Assembly: GCA_026387235.1 (NCBI GenBank)
Contig: JAPLMD010000051.1
Location: 1-33,108, forward strand
DNA: 33,108 nucleotides
Origin: Candidatus Omnitrophota bacterium
GTDB taxonomy: Bacteria; Omnitrophota; Gorgyraeia; Gorgyraeales; Gorgyraeaceae
Direction of reading: 5' to 3'
Part shown: positions 2,590 to 19,798 of the stretch, in pieces
Layout: each line of letters starts with the position of its first letter
Numbering within the stretch: position 1 is the first letter of the stretch
Program-made: the position numbers and the translations under genes
The notes under the pieces: generated by a model
Told to the model about the DNA's origin: nothing
The model's database searches: none
Seen by the model: only the letters and a program-made list of their open reading frames with translations

Positions 2590-2911
2590 AAGGAACTGCG
2601 CTAAGGCGTTTTTGAGGTATCTTCTTGCTACAAGAGATGCATAGTCCGAATTTACCCTCTTCCATGCGCTTCAATGCATCATCGATCTCGTATATAATCT
2701 CCTGCTCTTCGCCGGCAATATTCAAGCTCAGTTCTCTGTCATAGCTATCGCTTGCCATATCCGCCATGTGAAAGCTGTAACCGGATAAATCCCCCGACGA
2801 TTCTTTCTGGGATTTCAGGCTCTCCTTGGCTATATGATTTATATCGCCATTGATTGTTTCTCTCACCTTTATTAAAAGCCTCTTGTATTTTGCCAGTTCT
2901 AACTTAGTCAT
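2540..2911 (-). CDS. TraR/DksA family C4 zinc-finger protein
   Basis: The C-terminus has the four-cysteine zinc finger of the DksA/TraR family: CISC at 91-94 and CIQC at 112-115, with LSAVPYAKYC between. The preceding segment GEEQEIIYEIDDALKRMEEG is the family's helical region. DksA proteins enter the RNA polymerase secondary channel and act with ppGpp. At 123 residues it is closer to the short YocK/TraR-like members than to E. coli DksA (151), so I do not assign the dksA symbol. The start ATG overlaps the ileS stop as ATGA, implying translational coupling. Placement between ileS and lspA recurs in other bacteria as I recall. Confidence 0.88.
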   Translation of the reverse strand: MTKLELAKYKRLLIKVRETINGDINHIAKESLKSQKESSGDLSGYSFHMADMASDSYDRELSLNIAGEEQEIIYEIDDALKRMEEGKFGLCISCSKKIPQKRLSAVPYAKYCIQCKSEEEKKK

Positions 2912-5688
2912 TTTGTTTTATCCTCCGTTACAACATCGATGCATCTCTCGCAAAGTGTTGGATTGTTTCTATCCTCTCCAACTAACGCGCTCCAGTTCCA
3001 GCAACGGCTGCATTTTTTACCGCCTGCCTTCGTAACCTGGATATATTTTTTATCTCCTATTGCAATCTCTACCTGCGAGACTATGAATATATAACGTAAA
3101 ATTGCCTGGTAACTATTTAAGAATTCGTATTCTTCTGTGTCGGCTGTAACCAGCTTCACTTTAGCTTCAAGAGGACTGCCTATTAATTTAGCGATCCTTT
3201 TTTCTTCAAGGGCTTTTAAAACATCTTCCCTCAGCTGTATCAACCTCTGCCATCTGGCCTCGAGCTCAGTATCAATCAGATTGCTCTCTAGCTTCGGCCA
3301 ATCCGCAAGATGCACCGAGCCAGCTTTATTAAAATAACCCCATATCTCTTCTGCTGTAAACGGAATTATAGGAGCCATCTGCCTTGTGAGAACACTTAAA
3401 ATTTTATAAAGAGCTGTCTGGCCGGACCTCCTGGCCTTTGAACTAGCCCCAAAAGTATACAACCTATCCTTTAAAATATCAAGATAAAAATTTGACATGT
3501 CAAGTATGCAGAATTTATAGATGGAACTCGCGGCTTCATGAAACATAAACTTTTCAAATGAATCCGTAACTTCCTTGAGAACGGAATTCAGCCTGGAAAA
3601 AGCCCACCTGTCAATCTCAAACAAATCCTTGTTGGCTACTGAGTCTTTTTCCGGGTCAAAATCATAAAGATTGCCGAGAAGGTATTTCGCGGTATTCCTG
3701 AATTTACGATACGCTTCCACGGTGCGGTCTAAAATCTCTTCCGAAACCCTGACATCGTCAAAATAAGACGACGAACTTACCCAGAGCCTCAGTACGTCCG
3801 CGCCTTTTTTAGAAATTATTTCCTGCGGACTTACCACGTTGCCGGCTGATTTTGACATCTTCTTGCCTTCGCCATCTACTACAAAACCATGCGTAAGCAC
3901 GTTCTTGAACGGGGATTTTGCCTCAATTCCCATCCCGATCAAAATAGAAGTCTGGAACCAGCCTCTGTGCTGATCGCTGCCTTCCAGATACAGATCAGCA
4001 GGGAAACCAAGCCCCTTATTTATCCTGAGGACTCCCTGATGACTCGCGCCTGATTCAAACCAGACGTCAAGTATGTCTGTTTCCTTTTTGAATTCATTGC
4101 CGCCGCACTTTTTACATTTGAAGCCATCCGGCATGAAACTCTTTGCGTCTTTAGAAAACCAGGAATCAGAACCCAGGCTGCCGAAAATATCTTCTATGTT
4201 TTTCATCACCCGGCTGTCTATCACTTCTGAATTACATGAAACGCAATATAAAATAGGTATGGGCACGCCCCAGTAGCGCTGCCTTGAAAGGCACCAGTCA
4301 GGCCGCAGCTCTATCATGCTGGAGATGCGTTTTTCGCCTGCATCAGGTATCCATTTTACGCTCTTTATTTCATCTAGAGTTTTCTGCCTCAGGCCGAGTC
4401 TATCTACCCCAAGGAACCATTGTTTTGTGGCGCGGAATAAAAGCGGCGAATGGCAGCGCCAGCAATATGGATACGAATGTTCCGTCCTCGCTGATATCAA
4501 AAGGGCTTTTTTATCCGACAGGATCTTTAAGACAATATCATTGGCCTCCAATATCGGCTTGCCTACGATTTCATCGGGAACTTCGAATGAATCTATTTTT
4601 TTAAACCTGCCCTTTTCATCCACAGGCATGACAATCGGCAGATTATACTTTAATCCGACTTCATAGTCTTCCTGGCCATGGCCCGGGGCAATGTGAACGC
4701 AGCCTGTTCCATCTTCATTTGAAACATAATCCGCCAATACAACCTTTGAGGAGCGGTTTAAAAAAGGATGGCTAGCTGTCATGCCTTCTAATTCTCTGCC
4801 TTTTACTGTTTTTACGACGTTGCCGCTTACGCCGAGTTTTTTAAGCACGGTTTCCAGGAGGTCCTGGCACAATATTAAAGTTCCATGGCTATCGGTTTCG
4901 ACAAACACGTATGCGAGGTCAGGATGAACAGCTATTGCCACGTTTGAAACAAGCGTCCAAGGCGTAGTTGTCCAGACGAGAAAAAATAACTCACCTGGCC
5001 CACCTGTCAGGTGAGCCAATTGGCTCACCTGACAGGTGGATTCGGTATGAAATCTAACATATATAGACGGGGAGGTATGATCTTCGTATTCAACCTCAGC
5101 CTCTGCAAGAGCGGTTTCGCATTTTGCACACCAGTTTATAGGCTTAAGGCCCCGATAAATAAAGCCGCCCTGCACGAGTTTATTGAAACTCGCCACTACC
5201 GCCTTTTCGTATTCCGGTTTAAGGGTAAGATACGGATTATCCCAATCCCCGAAAACCCCAAGTCTTTCAAATTCAGCCTTCTGGATTTCTACAAATTTCA
5301 TTGCGAATTCATGCGCCATTTTTCTGAACCTTACCTGATCCACGTCGTGCTTTGTCTTTTTCATTTCCTTAAAAAGCTGATGCTCAATAGGCATGCCGTG
5401 GCAATCCCATCCTGGGACATAGGGCGCGTCATACCCTCGCATTGTTTTAAACTTTATGACTATATCTTTAAAGGTTTTATTCAAAGCGTGGCCTATGTGG
5501 ATATTCCCATTCGCGTATGGCGGGCCGTCGTGGAGTATGTATTTCGGCTTGCCTTTCTGCTTTTCCCTTATCATTTTATAAAGATCCATCTTTTCCCATT
5601 TTTCGAGAATGACAGGTTCTTCATCAGGAAGATTGGCCTTCATCGGAAAATCAGTCCTGGGCAGATTTAAAGTATTCTTATATTCCAT
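2908..5688 (-). CDS. ileS: Isoleucine-tRNA ligase carrying an in-frame palindromic insert
   Basis: It charges tRNA-Ile and edits misactivated valine. Class I signatures are PPYANGNIHIGH (56-67) and GEGKKMSKSAGN (KMSKS near 610-614). The editing-domain motif VWTTTPWTL lies near 238-246, the anticodon-binding domain follows, and a C-terminal zinc ribbon shows CSRCW...CERC. The length of 926 residues is normal. Residues 217-230 (STCQVSQLAHLTGG) are encoded by a perfect 40-bp palindrome, sitting between the YVRF strand and the editing motif, at a point where the family varies in length. The frame is intact, so the enzyme is probably functional. The gene starts one base after the mtnP stop and ends in an ATGA overlap with the DksA-like gene. 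Confidence 0.97.
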   Translation of the reverse strand: MEYKNTLNLPRTDFPMKANLPDEEPVILEKWEKMDLYKMIREKQKGKPKYILHDGPPYANGNIHIGHALNKTFKDIVIKFKTMRGYDAPYVPGWDCHGMPIEHQLFKEMKKTKHDVDQVRFRKMAHEFAMKFVEIQKAEFERLGVFGDWDNPYLTLKPEYEKAVVASFNKLVQGGFIYRGLKPINWCAKCETALAEAEVEYEDHTSPSIYVRFHTESTCQVSQLAHLTGGPGELFFLVWTTTPWTLVSNVAIAVHPDLAYVFVETDSHGTLILCQDLLETVLKKLGVSGNVVKTVKGRELEGMTASHPFLNRSSKVVLADYVSNEDGTGCVHIAPGHGQEDYEVGLKYNLPIVMPVDEKGRFKKIDSFEVPDEIVGKPILEANDIVLKILSDKKALLISARTEHSYPYCWRCHSPLLFRATKQWFLGVDRLGLRQKTLDEIKSVKWIPDAGEKRISSMIELRPDWCLSRQRYWGVPIPILYCVSCNSEVIDSRVMKNIEDIFGSLGSDSWFSKDAKSFMPDGFKCKKCGGNEFKKETDILDVWFESGASHQGVLRINKGLGFPADLYLEGSDQHRGWFQTSILIGMGIEAKSPFKNVLTHGFVVDGEGKKMSKSAGNVVSPQEIISKKGADVLRLWVSSSSYFDDVRVSEEILDRTVEAYRKFRNTAKYLLGNLYDFDPEKDSVANKDLFEIDRWAFSRLNSVLKEVTDSFEKFMFHEAASSIYKFCILDMSNFYLDILKDRLYTFGASSKARRSGQTALYKILSVLTRQMAPIIPFTAEEIWGYFNKAGSVHLADWPKLESNLIDTELEARWQRLIQLREDVLKALEEKRIAKLIGSPLEAKVKLVTADTEEYEFLNSYQAILRYIFIVSQVEIAIGDKKYIQVTKAGGKKCSRCWNWSALVGEDRNNPTLCERCIDVVTEDKTK
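5000..5039. repeat. Palindromic element family A, copy 1 (inside ileS, translated)
   Basis: This is a perfect 40-bp palindrome: the left arm CCACCTGTCAGGTGAGCCAA is exactly the reverse complement of the right arm. Each arm also contains a small nested palindrome, CACCTGNCAGGTG. It shares 36 of 40 bases with the core of the murB-ddl copy. Two of the four differences are paired (T-A versus C-G), preserving the stem. On the minus strand it is read in frame as part of ileS without a stop. A further CTCACCTGG lies just outside at 4990-4998. Confidence 0.92.
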
Positions 5689-8165: not shown

Positions 8166-8181
8166 AATAGTTACCTCGCTC

Positions 8182-8241
8182 TTCTCGACTCTCCGCCTAC
8201 GGCGGATTGCTCGAAGAATATTGTTCGAGCGAAGTCGAGAA
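8182..8241. repeat. Palindromic element family B, copy 1 (ftsQ-ftsA spacer)
   Basis: Outer arms TTCTCGACT (8182-8190) and AGTCGAGAA (8233-8241) enclose two hairpins: TCCGCC-TAC-GGCGGA (8192-8206) and GCTCGAA...TTCGAGC (8209-8230) around AATATT. The whole can fold as a three-way structure. It is 60 bp long, a multiple of three, and five of its six frames are free of stops. It matches the murE copy in the opposite orientation at 56 of 60 aligned bases. It takes up most of the 87-bp gap between ftsQ and ftsA and ends close to the ftsA ribosome-binding site. Confidence 0.88.
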
Positions 8242-8252
8242 CAATTTTAATA

Positions 8253-9074
8253 TTACCTAGGCCCCACTATCGGGTCCTCAAAACGTAAATCAATATATTT
8301 TACTCTATCTATATCCCGGCCCAGCTGCTCCAGCACCGTAGCGAGCACGTCCAGCCTTTTATTAAATTCAGATTCGCCTATCTTTATTTCTACTTTTTCC
8401 GCATCGCTGGCATTGAGAAAAAAAGATATGTTACGGCTGTCGGCTATATCTATTGTTTTTATTTTGTATCCTGAAAGTTTTCTATTCACTGACAGCGCAT
8501 ATATAAGGAATAATGCCTTATTAATCTTTTCCTTCTGGACCGAACTGCCTCTAAAGGGACTAACCCTAATCCCGGAAATAAGGGGGATGCCTTCCCCGCT
8601 ATTTTTCGTATCTGTCAGAAAAACACCATCTTTGTCTATAAGATACAGCCTGTCACCGTAAATTTGAGCTACAGGCAGCCTTCTTCTCGCCTGAACAATC
8701 AATTTATTGGGTAACGCGCGTCTAACGACAATGTCTCTTAATTCAGGATGTTTAAGCTCTATTCTATCTTTAAAGTTCTTAAGGTCCACTAAAAATATAT
8801 TGGATCCCAAAACATCTTTGTCTTCAATATCGCTAAAACTTGCCCTGTGCAACACATTCTTCTCGTCATAAAATCTGACATCCAGGCCTTTAACGTTAAA
8901 ACTATCGGAATCCACAAACATGTACTGAAACGCTACAATGCCTGCGCCGATGAGCGCTACAAGAAGCGTCCAAAAAATAAATTTAATAACGCCTTTAAAA
9001 TTACGCTTTGCTCTAGGCTGAGGTTCTCTCTTTTTTTTGTGCGGATGAACCTTTTGTTTTTTTATTTTTACCAT
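8253..9074 (-). CDS. ftsQ: Cell-division protein FtsQ (POTRA domain)
   Basis: It is a bitopic inner-membrane scaffold of the divisome. A basic cytoplasmic stretch (MVKIKKQKVHPHKKKR onward) precedes one membrane helix at about residues 28-50. A periplasmic POTRA-like segment follows, with VKGLDVRF, LGSNIFLVDL, RRALPNKLIVQARRRLPVAQ, then the FtsQ beta region with YLIDKDGVFL. The size of 273 residues is normal. ATG 9074 overlaps the ddl stop by 7 nt. The order ddl-ftsQ-ftsA is the standard dcw order. The end is followed by family B element copy 1. Confidence 0.9.
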   Translation of the reverse strand: MVKIKKQKVHPHKKKREPQPRAKRNFKGVIKFIFWTLLVALIGAGIVAFQYMFVDSDSFNVKGLDVRFYDEKNVLHRASFSDIEDKDVLGSNIFLVDLKNFKDRIELKHPELRDIVVRRALPNKLIVQARRRLPVAQIYGDRLYLIDKDGVFLTDTKNSGEGIPLISGIRVSPFRGSSVQKEKINKALFLIYALSVNRKLSGYKIKTIDIADSRNISFFLNASDAEKVEIKIGESEFNKRLDVLATVLEQLGRDIDRVKYIDLRFEDPIVGPR

Positions 9075-10012
9075 GCGGAGTTCAAAATTTTAAGGCAGAG
9101 GTCTTCAAAGCTGATTCCTATAGACTTTGCCGCCTTCGGCAGAAGACTTGTCTGGGTAAAGCCCGGTATGGTATTTATTTCCAATACCACAGGCCCCATC
9201 TTCTCATTCAATATAATATCCACGCGCGAAAATGACCTGGCTGAAAGAACCTTATGAGCCCTCAGACCAGCGTCCTGGCACATCTTATACGTCTTTTCAT
9301 CTATCCGGGCAGGCACAATATATTCAGTCATGCCCTTTTCGTATTTAGCGGTAAAATCAAAAAATTTTCTTTTCGGCACAATCTCTACAATCGGCAAAGC
9401 ACTGTCTTCTATTATGCCCACTGTAATTTCTCTGCCGGGAATATACTCCTCTATAATCAATTTATCGTCGTATCTAAACGCGTCATCAATAGCTATCTTT
9501 AAATCTTTCTCGTTACCCGCTATATTCAGGCCTATGCTGGATCCGCCATTTGAAGGTTTTACAACAAGGCTTGAGCCGAGCGATTTAAAATACGCATTTA
9601 TATCGCAGTTTTTATTAAGACTGCTCCTGGACAGAACTTCATGCCTGGCAATCGGTATATTATTCGACTTAAATACTTCCTTTGCCGTAATTTTATTCAT
9701 CGCGACCTTAGAGGCAGCGGACGAACTTCCTGTATAAGGTATATTCATTTCCTCAAGCAATTGCTGCACTGTGCCGTCTTCTCCGAATTCTCCGTGAAGC
9801 GCTATAAATGCCACGTCTATTTTCATGCGGGTTATCAGCGCAGAGACTGCTTTTTTATAGCCGTTCGTATTTGAACCTGACATGAGCTCCACGGGCACGT
9901 AATCTATCTGCTTTGCTTCAAGCGCTTTACAGACTGCCTTGCCAGATTTTATAGAAATCTCCCTTTCAGAAGAAGGCCCGCCCATCAATACGCCTACGCG
10001 TTTATTTTTCAT
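9068..10012 (-). CDS. ddl: D-alanine--D-alanine ligase
   Basis: This ATP-grasp enzyme joins two D-alanines for the pentapeptide stem. It opens with the N-terminal VGVLMGGPSSEREISIKSG and shows ALHGEFGEDGTVQQLLE, PYTGSSSAAS, VVKPSNGGSSIGL and C-terminal EINTIPGFTQTSLLPKAA with the Mg-binding Glu/Asn. It is 314 residues, normal for the DdlB type. The start ATG 10012 sits just after the family A palindrome. The outer arm supplies AAGG about nine bases before the ATG, the only ribosome-binding-like sequence there, so the palindrome could affect ddl translation. Confidence 0.95.
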   Translation of the reverse strand: MKNKRVGVLMGGPSSEREISIKSGKAVCKALEAKQIDYVPVELMSGSNTNGYKKAVSALITRMKIDVAFIALHGEFGEDGTVQQLLEEMNIPYTGSSSAASKVAMNKITAKEVFKSNNIPIARHEVLSRSSLNKNCDINAYFKSLGSSLVVKPSNGGSSIGLNIAGNEKDLKIAIDDAFRYDDKLIIEEYIPGREITVGIIEDSALPIVEIVPKRKFFDFTAKYEKGMTEYIVPARIDEKTYKMCQDAGLRAHKVLSARSFSRVDIILNEKMGPVVLEINTIPGFTQTSLLPKAAKSIGISFEDLCLKILNSAW

Positions 10013-10020
10013 AATCCATT

Positions 10021-10076
10021 ACCTTGGTCCACCTGCCAGGTGAGCCATCTGGCTCACCTGGCAGGTGGACCAAGGT
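10021..10076. repeat. Palindromic element family A, copy 2 (murB-ddl spacer)
   Basis: Two perfect 27-bp arms (10021-10047 and 10050-10076) flank a 2-base centre. The inner 40 bp match the ileS copy at 36 positions, and the arms extend further with ACCTTGGT/ACCAAGGT. It starts directly at the murB stop and fills nearly the whole 64-bp spacer. No T-run follows on the minus strand, so it does not look like a classical terminator. The arm carries the AAGG that may serve ddl. Confidence 0.93.
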
Positions 10077-10955
10077 TTACAGTATCTTTAATTCAAGTTC
10101 TAAGTCCATGCCGAATTTTTGGCGAACGCTCGTTTTCGCCAAATCTATCAGACCAAGGACGTCATTTGCCTTTGCCCTGCCAAGGTTCACTATAATATTT
10201 GCGTGAACCTTGGAAATCTCAGCTCCGCCTATCCTCCTGCCTTTTAAGCCGCAGGATTCTATCAGCATACCTGCCGGTTTATCAAGGCAGGGATTTTTAA
10301 ATATACTGCCTGCGTTCGGAAAACCTATTTTAATAAACCACTCCCGTTTTTTATTAAACGCTTTTATTTTATCCTCAATATTCTCTTTTTTGTCTTTTTT
10401 CAGCTTAAGCCTGGCTCCTAAAATAACTTTTCCATCCAGGCCTGAATAACGATATTTAAAATCTATGTCTTTTCTGCTTAAAGTTTTTATCTTCCCGCTT
10501 TTTAAATCTAAAACTTCCGCGTCAAGAAGTATATCTTTTATCTCGTCGAATTTAGCAGGATCTTCCAGGCTTCTCGCGCCCGCGTTCATGAAAATCGCGC
10601 CGCCAACATTGCCAGGAATTCCGGTTAAAAATTCGCAACCTCCCAGACCCAGATCTAAAGCATATTTTACCAGCTTTGCCGCGCTAAGCCCTGCGCCTAT
10701 CTTTATTATTTCTTCGCCTTCTTTTTCTCTTTTTTCAAAACCTTTGGTCAGGCAAATTATTACGCCGTCAAATCCCTCATCTTTAACCAGCAGGTTCGTG
10801 CCTTTTCCTATTACGCTGAATTTTTTATTTTTGCTCTCTGCAAAAGAGACTGCTTCTAAAACGCCTTTCGGATTTTCAGGCTGCGCCCAGCAATACGCAG
10901 AGCCTCCTATCTTAAAACTCGTATGCCGGGATAATGGCTCATTATACCTTAGCAT
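10077..10955 (-). CDS. murB: UDP-N-acetylmuramate dehydrogenase
   Basis: This flavoenzyme reduces UDP-GlcNAc-enolpyruvate to UDP-MurNAc with NADPH. The FAD-binding region shows RHTSFKIGGSA, FSVIGKGTNLLVKDEGFDGVII, LTGIPGNVGGAIFMNAGA. The catalytic serine motif NAGSIFKNP and the substrate domain with GGAEISKVHANIIVN follow. The length of 292 residues fits the type II MurB group. ATG 10955 overlaps the murC end by 14 nt, and murC-murB-ddl is a typical order. MurA, which makes its substrate, is not in the window. Confidence 0.95.
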   Translation of the reverse strand: MLRYNEPLSRHTSFKIGGSAYCWAQPENPKGVLEAVSFAESKNKKFSVIGKGTNLLVKDEGFDGVIICLTKGFEKREKEGEEIIKIGAGLSAAKLVKYALDLGLGGCEFLTGIPGNVGGAIFMNAGARSLEDPAKFDEIKDILLDAEVLDLKSGKIKTLSRKDIDFKYRYSGLDGKVILGARLKLKKDKKENIEDKIKAFNKKREWFIKIGFPNAGSIFKNPCLDKPAGMLIESCGLKGRRIGGAEISKVHANIIVNLGRAKANDVLGLIDLAKTSVRQKFGMDLELELKIL

Positions 10956-16868: not shown

Positions 16869-18248
16869 TCAAGTTGTTTTAAATTGCAGTTCAAGCTCAT
16901 TGACTATACCTTCCATTTTCATCGCCCTGGAGCCTTTTACGAGAATCGTATCTCCTTTTTTAATCAGGTTTGCCATTTTTTCACAGGCCTCTTTTGTAAC
17001 CGCGCATAGTTTGATTTTCCTCTGGCTCATGCCTGCTTCCTGAGCGCCTTTCGCGATATGCTCAGCGAGTTTTCCGACAGCCACTATAAGGTCAATACCT
17101 GATTCAGCGGCTTGTTTGCCTACTAAATGATGGAACCTGCCTGAAAACGTGCCAAGTTCAAGCATGTCTCCGGCTACGAGCACTTTTCTGCCTTCCGTAG
17201 TCATGTCTCTCAGCGCCTCTATTGCCTGTTTCATCGACTGGGGATTCGCGTTATAGGTATCGTTTATTATTTTTATGTCTCCGAATCTCTTAACCTCCAT
17301 TCTCATATTAGGCACCTTGAATTCTTTTAAAGCATCTTTTATGTCTTCGATAGGCACGCCGAAATCCCATGCGCACGCTATTGCGGCTAGGGCATTGTGC
17401 ACATTGTGCCTGCCGAGGACGCCGAGCGATATATCCCATTTTCCATTCAGCCTGAAATCGATACCGTCAGGCTCCAGGTTTATTTTATCGGCATAAAAAT
17501 CGGCCTCTTTATCAAATCCAAACCAGACAGTCTTGAGGTTTGTCTTTATCGTTCTCAGGCCGTCGTCGTCCGCATTTAAAATAAGTTTCCCGTTTTTATC
17601 CATATATTCCAATATTTCTAATTTTGCCTTGAGAACCGTATCAACGTCTTCCAGATATTCCAGATGCGAAGGCCCTATGTTTGTAATAATTACCCCGGTC
17701 GGCCTGGCTATCTCCGAAAGCCGCCTTATCTCTCCCAGATGATTGGTGCCCATTTCCAGAACAGCTATTCTATGCTCGCCGTTTAAACGCATCAGCGTAA
17801 GTGGCACGCCTATATTATTATTTTCCGTGCCAAAACTCTTGAGGGTATTGAATTTTTTGTTCAATATGGCGGCTGTCATTTCTTTGGTGGTAGTTTTGCC
17901 GTTTGAACCGGTAATACCTATTATAGGTATGTTAAATCTGGATCTGTGAAAATTCCCGATATCCCCTAACGCTTTTATGCTGTCACTGACCGAGATAAAG
18001 GAAACGTCCGGCAGCTTAAAATTTGCGTTTGTAATGCCTCCTTCCTGCACTAATACGCCTCCTGCGCCTTTAGCCACTGCATCAAGGATAAAACTGTGGC
18101 CGTCGAAATTTCCTCCTTTTATCGCAACGAAAAGTTCTCCGTTTTTTATCTTGCGCGTATCAGTGGATATACCCGTCAGTATTTCGTCCGGATTACCTGA
18201 CAAGAGCTTTCCTTTTACCGCGCCTAAGACATCTCCGACTGTAAACAT
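16869..18248 (-). CDS. murF: UDP-MurNAc-tripeptide--D-alanyl-D-alanine ligase
   Basis: It adds the D-Ala-D-Ala dipeptide supplied by Ddl. The P-loop GITGSNGKTTTKEM spans 111-124, EMGTNHLGEIRRL and NIGPSHLEYLED follow, and INDTYNANPQSMKQAI is the MurF substrate signature. The end has LVKGSRAMKMEG, which distinguishes MurF from MurE. It is 459 residues. GGGAGG lies seven bases before ATG 18248, which overlaps the murE end by 25 nt. Confidence 0.97.
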   Translation of the reverse strand: MFTVGDVLGAVKGKLLSGNPDEILTGISTDTRKIKNGELFVAIKGGNFDGHSFILDAVAKGAGGVLVQEGGITNANFKLPDVSFISVSDSIKALGDIGNFHRSRFNIPIIGITGSNGKTTTKEMTAAILNKKFNTLKSFGTENNNIGVPLTLMRLNGEHRIAVLEMGTNHLGEIRRLSEIARPTGVIITNIGPSHLEYLEDVDTVLKAKLEILEYMDKNGKLILNADDDGLRTIKTNLKTVWFGFDKEADFYADKINLEPDGIDFRLNGKWDISLGVLGRHNVHNALAAIACAWDFGVPIEDIKDALKEFKVPNMRMEVKRFGDIKIINDTYNANPQSMKQAIEALRDMTTEGRKVLVAGDMLELGTFSGRFHHLVGKQAAESGIDLIVAVGKLAEHIAKGAQEAGMSQRKIKLCAVTKEACEKMANLIKKGDTILVKGSRAMKMEGIVNELELQFKTT

Positions 18249-19798
18249 AGTCCCGCCTCCCTTAAAATACGTTTTACAACTTCCTTATCGTCAAATGGAA
18301 CCATCGTGTCTTTAAATATCTGGTACGTCTCATGGCCTTTGCCAGCCACGAGCACGATGTCTCCTTCCCGAGCCTCAGCCAATGCCTTTTTAATGGCATT
18401 AAATCTATCCGGCTCAATCGCATAATTATCTTTTTTAAGGTCTATGCCCCTGGCAATCTCATTTATAATATCCATGGGCTCTTCATTTCTGGGATTATCG
18501 CTTGTGATAAACACCATGTCCGAAAGTTCCGTTGAAATCTTTCCCATCCTAGGCCTTTTAAATCTGTCGCGATTTCCGCCGCAGCCAAATACAGATATAA
18601 GTTTCCCGGGCTTTAATTCTCTCAGAGATTTAAGCACGTTCTCCAGCCCATCTTCTGTATGAGCGTAATCAACGTATACTGAAAAATTCTGGCCACAGCC
18701 GACACTCTCGAGTCTTCCCGGAAGGCCTTTCATAGCCTCTATGCCTTTCTCAACATTTTTCAAATCCATTCCTAACGTAATGGCCGCGGCAATACTTGCC
18801 AGGATATTATAGATATTGTGGCGGCCGATTAAACTTGAGTTTATATCAATGTACTTCTCGACTTCGTTCGCTTCGCTCACTCCGCTCGAAGAATATTGTT
18901 CGAGCGATCCGCCATAGGCGGAGAGTCGAGAACTAACAGAAAGTCTAAATTTCAGGCCATTGCAGGAAAGTTTTATATCTTCAGCCCTGATATCTGCTCT
19001 GCGGTTAATCCCGTATGTAATTACCTTTGCCTTGCCGTCAGATTTTATCTTTTCTATAATTTTCGCCGCGCTTGGATCATCTGTATTGATTATCGCAAAC
19101 CCGCCTTTTTTTATCTTTTCAAATAATTTCAGCTTCGCGTTCAGATAATCTTCCATGTTCTTATGAAAATCCAGGTGTTCCCTGGTAAGATTAGTAAATA
19201 TCGCTGCATCAAATTTCAAGGTCTCCACCCTTCCGAGTTCCAGAGAATGCGAAGAAACCTCCATCACGCAATTCTCTATCTTTTCCTTCTGCATGCTTGA
19301 TAAAAGTGAATAAAGCTCCAGCGTCCCGGGAGTGGTATTCACCGCAGGGATCAAGCGCCGGCCGAACCTGTAATTCACAGTGCCTATAATGCCCGCTTCT
19401 TGATTTATGAATTTAAATAAACTTTCCATGAGATACGTTATTGTAGTTTTGCCGTTTGTACCTGTAATACCTATGAGACGCATCTTGCCGGAGATATCTC
19501 CGAAATACGCCTGGCAGGCCAGGGCAAGCGCTAACCTGGCGTCTTTAGTATAGATGAACGTATCGCCTTTTTTAAAAATACCTTTATCGCAGGCATCAAG
19601 CAATATCGCGCTTGCGCCCCTCTCTATTGCCTCATCAATGAAATCCGCGCCGTTTACCTTTGAGCCTTTTAAGGCAGCGAATAAATACCCCGGCTTGACC
19701 GCCTTTGAATCGCAGGCTATGCCGCTTATCTCTAGGTTTGTTTTGCCGACTACTTTAACTATTCCGGTTAAATTATCAATGATTTTTTTTAGCTTCAA
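18224..19798 (-). CDS. murE: UDP-MurNAc-L-Ala-D-Glu--meso-diaminopimelate ligase with in-frame palindromic insert
   Basis: It adds the third stem residue. DNPR (434-437, in SDNPRNEEP) is the usual meso-DAP specificity motif, so a Gram-negative-type peptidoglycan is likely. The P-loop GITGTNGKTTITYL spans 110-123; NTTPGTLELYSLL, MEVSSHSLELGRV and VDYAHTEDGLENVL follow. At 524 residues it is longer than the usual 480-500. The excess is residues 289-315, encoded by a family B palindromic element between KFRLSV and INSSLIGRHN, at a probable strand-turn of the central domain. All catalytic motifs remain. The start overlaps ftsI by 23 nt. Confidence 0.97.
   Translation of the reverse strand: MKLKKIIDNLTGIVKVVGKTNLEISGIACDSKAVKPGYLFAALKGSKVNGADFIDEAIERGASAILLDACDKGIFKKGDTFIYTKDARLALALACQAYFGDISGKMRLIGITGTNGKTTITYLMESLFKFINQEAGIIGTVNYRFGRRLIPAVNTTPGTLELYSLLSSMQKEKIENCVMEVSSHSLELGRVETLKFDAAIFTNLTREHLDFHKNMEDYLNAKLKLFEKIKKGGFAIINTDDPSAAKIIEKIKSDGKAKVITYGINRRADIRAEDIKLSCNGLKFRLSVSSRLSAYGGSLEQYSSSGVSEANEVEKYIDINSSLIGRHNIYNILASIAAAITLGMDLKNVEKGIEAMKGLPGRLESVGCGQNFSVYVDYAHTEDGLENVLKSLRELKPGKLISVFGCGGNRDRFKRPRMGKISTELSDMVFITSDNPRNEEPMDIINEIARGIDLKKDNYAIEPDRFNAIKKALAEAREGDIVLVAGKGHETYQIFKDTMVPFDDKEVVKRILREAGLCLQSEMS
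18855..18932. repeat. Palindromic element family B, copy 2 (inside murE, translated)
   Basis: Outer arms TTCTCGACT (18855-18863) and AGTCGAGAA (18924-18932) enclose GCTCGAA...TTCGAGC (18884-18905) and TCCGCC-ATA-GGCGGA (18908-18922). The 78 bp equal 26 codons. Compared with the ftsQ-ftsA copy it is reversed and carries an extra 18 bp (GGAGTGAGCGAAGCGAAC on the minus strand), also a multiple of three. It is read in murE as SRLSAYGGSLEQYSSSGV and continues through SEANEVEK, a Ser-rich polar stretch unlike the rest of the protein. Confidence 0.9.

Follow-up and report, generated by a model that had tools for sequence, protein, structure and literature searches.

Palindromic repeats that are translated as part of proteins are already known from bacteria. 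Rickettsia palindromic elements are about 150 bp long and encode a conserved peptide (PMC10969869). Intragenic REPs of the GTAG and CGTC super-families, as in Opitutus terrae and Rickettsia conorii, contribute 20 to 30 residues to ORFs, and different REPs occur at about the same recB site in two Xanthomonas species (PMC3733652). REPINs carry inverted conserved sequences and a compensatory variable part, are predicted to form hairpins in single-stranded DNA (PMC3116915), and are thought to be moved by Y1 enzymes (PMC3116915, PMC8266576). With coding palindromes described in Rickettsia and intragenic REPs in several phyla (PMC10969869, PMC3733652), a repeat read in frame, as noted in the first-pass annotation of the present DNA, is not an unprecedented event.

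Here, we analyzed a stretch of 33,108 nucleotides from a Candidatus Omnitrophota genome (G000), referred to as the window. Its murE gene (18224 to 19798, minus strand) encodes 524 amino acids, with Mur_ligase, Mur_ligase_M and Mur_ligase_C domains and MurE structures in the PDB supporting the assignment, and contains an insert. Our results suggest, with a probability of roughly 0.85, that the insert is one copy of a REPIN-like mobile repeat, designated family B, which lies in frame at a strand turn of MurE, forms a tolerated loop, and arrived by short recombination. The repeat is palindromic and largely confined to one Omnitrophota family, and would be non-autonomous. It would have entered murE at a turn between two beta strands and would be translated as a loop of 27 residues that the enzyme tolerates.

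The insert corresponds to residues 289 to 315, SSRLSAYGGSLEQYSSSGVSEANEVEK, which are encoded without a stop codon by positions 18855 to 18932. That about 27 extra residues are read in frame here, as the first-pass annotation had proposed, is borne out by translation and by empty sites in sister species. The P-loop (residues 113 to 118) and the DNPR motif (residues 434 to 437) lie outside the insert and are, as also proposed, untouched. In an AlphaFold2 model built with 26 sequences, the mean pLDDT is 90.5, and values drop to 64 for residues 291 to 300 and 49 for residues 301 to 310. This stretch of low confidence is flanked by confident strands (residues 281 to 288 and 313 to 321), in agreement with an insert at a strand turn. 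The region fits an exposed flexible loop, which is presumably harmless.

The complete element is 80 bp long (18854 to 18933, minus strand). Its ends were set by comparing 86 copies, in which both terminal G residues are conserved (98% and 94%); translation and the sister empty sites agree. The 78 bp originally assigned were correctly placed in frame, but one conserved G was omitted at each end. On the coding strand, the element begins with an outer arm, GTTCTCGACT (18924 to 18933), and ends with a second arm, AGTCGAGAAG (18854 to 18863), both delimited by copy comparison. Between them are slot 1, the hairpin cassette CTCCGCCTATGGCGGATC with a 6-bp stem (18906 to 18923), recognized from the slot catalogue and from covariation in the 18-nt hairpin class; the core, GCTCGAACAATATTCTTCGAGC, a 22-bp near-palindrome found by core pattern searches (18884 to 18905); and slot 2, GGAGTGAGCGAAGCGAACGA, which contains GCGAAGC (18864 to 18883) and occurs as the same cassette in the murE of G004 and in locus L097 (G015). 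All of these parts are on the minus strand. RNA folding gave -37.7 kcal/mol (z of -3.5 against dinucleotide shuffles), and the predicted structure consists of outer arms and inner hairpins, as had been described. A related copy of 62 bp lies in the ftsQ-ftsA spacer (8181 to 8242, minus strand). It is indeed 18 bp shorter, but it is not simply a shortened copy, as its CCGCC hairpin lies across the core from that of the murE element. The suggestion that both lengths are multiples of three carries no meaning; the true lengths are 80 and 62 bp, and 78 and 60 bp result from the choice of end cuts.

The order of arm GTTCTCGACT, slot 1, core GCTCGAACAATATTCTTCGAGC, slot 2 and arm AGTCGAGAAG is general for family B, whose members measure about 46 to 120 bp. 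Arms and core are nearly invariant. The slots are filled by cassettes that can be exchanged; many cassettes are hairpins whose stems are unrelated in sequence yet show compensation. Among 190 slots, we found empty slots of 2 nt, 10-nt slots of the CGCTTCGCTC type, hairpins of about 14 to 30 nt, 27-nt cassettes, and 34-nt cassettes of the AGTTTATCCCGAGCGAAGTCGAGGGA type. Stems in hairpin slots of 14 to 21 nt average 4.48 bp, compared with 2.60 +/- 0.10 bp in shuffles, and in the 18-nt class 94.8% of the cells are paired, with 29 double changes against 9.0 +/- 2.2 in shuffles. At one orthologous site (L127 and L154), the slots differ while arms and core are unchanged. In another orthologous pair (L109/L086), a compensated stem change from GGCC...GGCC to GACC...GGTC is seen. 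Many slot hairpins have a GAA or TTC triloop, as in GCGAAGC, a sequence that forms an unusually stable DNA mini-hairpin. Such triloops are a lead towards the handling of the repeat as a single strand.

Other cassettes follow different patterns. The 27-nt cassettes, present for example in the 96-bp copies L135, L148 and L155, have a fixed length, a very variable sequence and no clear hairpin, and their stems are not exceptional (3.46 bp, compared with 3.24 +/- 0.13 bp in shuffles). The 34-nt cassettes, found in L103, L129, L137, L158 and others, have the appearance of a further dispersed repeat that sits within family B. A half-element of 41 bp, GTTCTCGACTCCGCTCGAACAATATTCTTTGAGCAGGGATA, is present as tandem direct repeats near murE in L030 (G012; about 1.2 to 1.5 kb, reverse strand).

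Family B resembles the Rickettsia palindromic elements in that palindromes lie in frame in unrelated genes, including essential ones, are absent from orthologs, and are also found between genes. Unlike those elements, family B is only about 46 to 120 bp long, is modular with exchangeable hairpin slots, and encodes no conserved peptide; the peptides differ because all six frames are used. A scan of 84,980 genomes for the exact core gave no match in any Rickettsia. Taken broadly, family B is a coding palindrome, as it is a dispersed palindromic repeat in frame in unrelated genes and absent from some orthologs. Like intragenic REPs, its members are short palindromes in ORFs, often dimers and sometimes two per gene. 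Unlike GTAG and CGTC REPs, they have neither tag at their ends, judging from base frequencies in 86 copies, and it is their ends and core that are conserved while the hairpins vary. The inverted conserved arms and compensated hairpins are shared with REPINs that accompany RAYT (TnpAREP) transposases. However, family B has its fixed core in the centre, separated from each arm by a variable part, and whereas REPINs are mainly extragenic and accompanied by RAYT, no Y1 gene was found beside family B in 32 Y1 loci. As far as the literature shows, what is new is the phylum, an architecture built on slots, translation in all six frames, and a MurE loop that has been hit recurrently; our full-text searches gave no report of coding palindromes in Omnitrophota.

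Copies are numerous but unevenly distributed. This genome, a draft of 69 contigs, has about 10 family B places, and the genome-wide count that the first-pass annotation called for revealed both intergenic and coding copies; such counts rest on pattern searches and sequence stretches. The fetched loci contain 113 distinct cores. A control with the reversed pattern gave zero matches throughout, so the repeat is not due to chance. When two mismatches at most were allowed, a search of 384 genomes of the class recovered the core from the majority of genus members and from several genera of family f1, where copy numbers run from 0 to about 60 per genome (about 60 in G012). Of the remaining genomes, a single one of family f3 (G306) has the core, in five copies. 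These copies are on contigs C17, C21, C55 and C81, the rest of f3 is free of the core, and their presence suggests horizontal transfer. The exact core occurs in 109 stretches among 84,980 genomes, with all listed titles naming Candidatus Omnitrophica or Omnitrophota except for two that read only "bacterium." Carriage by phages was considered and set aside, as an exact scan found no core in the viral contigs of IMG/VR.

A 22-bp near-palindromic core that hardly varies and many copies in spacers of conserved operons would also be expected of a DNA-binding or RNA regulatory site, such as a palindromic operator or an mRNA-stability hairpin, that was spread by selection and left the coding copies as by-products. 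We consider this quite improbable, since related genomes have anything between 0 and about 60 copies, L127 and L154 have different slots although they occupy one site, and orthologous spacers contain different palindromes or nothing. Across the genus (L299 to L332), the ftsQ-ftsA and rplR-rpsE spacers are either empty or occupied by palindromes that differ between species, and judging from these sequences the sites turn over quickly.

The comparison of sister MurE proteins revealed no conserved domain at the insertion site. Seven members of the genus (G001, G003, G006, G008, G009, G010 and G011) have no element and a much shorter loop; some element-free proteins carry instead a short GCGGAGCGAAGCTCCGC-like hairpin, itself a repeat with a few copies in each genome. 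The G005 assembly yielded no MurE, probably owing to incompleteness. In G004, the element is at the same codon and identical at 79 of 80 positions, the one difference being synonymous, within flanking DNA that is 77 to 78% identical. G007 has a different version of family B in the loop. The loops of G002 and of G017, which belongs to another genus of the family, each contain a dimer of an unrelated palindromic repeat with 19 and 6 occurrences in the respective genomes. One MurE loop has thus been entered in frame by three unrelated palindromic repeat families in five species, with a fourth short palindrome in others. Further pairs of filled and empty orthologous sites were found for family B.

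How the element reached the murE of G000 is indicated by the mosaic structure of the gene. In most windows of comparison, the gene is closest to that of G009 (about 0.8 to 0.94 identity), a sister genome that is only 61% complete. The 20 or so codons just upstream of the element (18934 to 18993, minus strand) instead match G008 at 52 of 54 positions and G009 at 39 of 60, and likely represent a short recombinant tract; from about 13 codons past the element, G009 is again the closest. Most simply, a relative on the G004/G008 side of the genus already had the element in its murE, and G000 probably obtained it from there within a short tract exchanged by homologous recombination. Ancestral presence in the genus followed by many losses is less likely, because of the mosaic tract and because G000 and G004 are not sisters by MurE identity. 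Alternatively, the identity of the G000 and G004 copies could reflect constraint or homogenization rather than transfer.

This identity is also the argument for regarding the insert as a functional, adaptive loop of MurE, kept by selection for regulation or for contact with another protein. Between G000 and G004, 26 of 27 element codons are identical, compared with 226 of 498 (45%) elsewhere in murE; the probability is about 2e-8 at the flank rate and about 2e-5 at the rate for codons specifying the same residue. A selected loop is nevertheless quite improbable. Seven relatives do without the insert, the loop is occupied by unrelated sequences in G002 and G017 and by a different version in G007, and local mosaicism points to transfer. 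Moreover, the non-coding copy in the rplR-rpsE spacer is equally conserved between G000 and G004 (53 of 54 positions, with flanks of 80 to 83%). The same spacer in G003 has another sequence, although G003 is closer to G000 on one flank, which is similar to what is seen in murE.

Initially, 24 candidate coding copies were recognized in ORFs of at least 240 amino acids, in all six frames and both orientations; L118 was dropped from the coding list, as the ORF compared was antisense. About 18 coding sites, again covering all six frames, include conserved enzyme domains. The insertion sites lie within or next to Pfam domains in an EPSP synthase family protein (two inserts), IF-2B, GT9, GT4, malate dehydrogenase, radical SAM, T2SSF, O-antigen ligase, YfhO (two inserts) and OEP. 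In the EPSP-synthase family protein L140:1217-2659 (G003), the inserts are at residues 221 and 308 and the domain match is still full-length; L092 has an insert at the first of these two sites. At one position of a radical SAM / DUF6873 gene, L129 (G005) carries family B, L138 (G003) a short remnant-like sequence, and L118 (G004) a family A-like palindrome (CCACCTACGGGGTGAGCC...), so that a second coding site has been used by different families. Family A, a separate palindrome, is itself read in frame in the window, as had been claimed: one copy (4996-5040) encodes residues 217 to 231 of a class I (I, L, M, V) tRNA synthetase ORF (2908-5688). Another copy (10021-10076) lies between the ORFs of D-Ala-D-Ala ligase (9068-10012) and MurB (10077-10955).

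At all of the roughly 14 sites where the ortholog from another species has a long real ORF that crosses the site, the element is in frame, in a test that takes the ortholog's ORF as its criterion and is not conditioned on that of the insert. Three apparent frame-breaking copies were dismissed: the ORF compared with L138 was antisense, L088 and an intact ortholog could be aligned in a single frame, and the copy between ftsQ and ftsA belongs, by its position between two ORFs, to a spacer. The lengths of the 24 candidates leave remainders of 0, 1 and 2 modulo 3 in 10, 8 and 6 cases. A length held at a multiple of three is therefore not a family property, and the frame must come from junction changes and selection, not from element length.

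Byp elements of yeast mitochondria are small hairpin inserts in protein-coding genes that the ribosome skips and that need not be in frame. A stable hairpin at a precise position within an essential gene calls such elements to mind, and the insert might be removed or skipped after transcription, as a tiny intron or by translational bypassing, leaving the protein unchanged. However, skipping would leave an element free to contain stops and to be of any length, whereas family B copies, unlike byps, are in frame and stop-free wherever an ortholog proves the site coding, with most or all frames open, which makes skipping very improbable. All six frames are free of stops in the minimal 46-bp element and in a common 66-bp form. 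Copies of up to 74 bp have on average 5.09 open frames, compared with 3.43 +/- 0.16 in dinucleotide shuffles, and all six are open in 15 of 33 (0.4 expected); since these copies share ancestry, they should be counted roughly as a single observation, for which the chance is about 1% per shuffled element, and not as 33 independent cases. Outside genes, short copies are rather open as well (4.5 frames, compared with 5.2 in genes), so openness is in part a property of the element. The near absence of stops in every frame would let the repeat persist in genes. A further reading, possible but doubtful, is that family B is a modular selfish repeat whose fixed parts are stop-free in six frames, so that insertion and cassette swaps do little harm in essential genes, i.e., mobile DNA adapted to translation.

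Finally, a 69-contig draft and the tendency of repeats to break assemblies might suggest an assembly or binning artefact, but this is hardly conceivable, since G004, a separate MAG, shows this element at the identical codon within different flanking sequence, and the ORF stays open.

With its sharp ends, hairpins, inverted symmetry and lack of target-site duplication, family B resembles REPINs. No excess of duplicated sequence of 2 to 9 bp was found in the flanks of 86 copies, which departs from a DDE-type MITE and is as expected of Y1-type movement. This raises the possibility that an HUH (Y1) type enzyme mobilizes the repeat in the form of a single strand that folds into hairpins, a proposal that we make tentatively and at somewhat less than even odds. 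Among the Y1_Tnp genes of 20 genomes (32 Y1 loci), we found no mobilizing gene for family B. Such genes are present in 20 of 20 genomes, whether these contain 0 or 60 family B copies; nearly all of the transposases fall into one group when clustered at 40% identity; and the 32 loci contain no core, only three single-arm near matches. Within these genomes and loci, a Y1 transposase as autonomous partner was rejected, with no link to copy number and no adjacent cores.

These results extend coding palindromes to the Omnitrophota, where their hosts include MurE, an EPSP-synthase family protein and malate dehydrogenase. The MurE loop, reused by unrelated repeats, is a natural experiment on insertion tolerance in an essential enzyme. 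The exchangeable slots, which pair strictly and keep fixed positions, raise the question of which activity swaps hairpins inside a repeat, and whether a sequence free of stops in six frames evolves by sparing its host gene becomes a tractable question.
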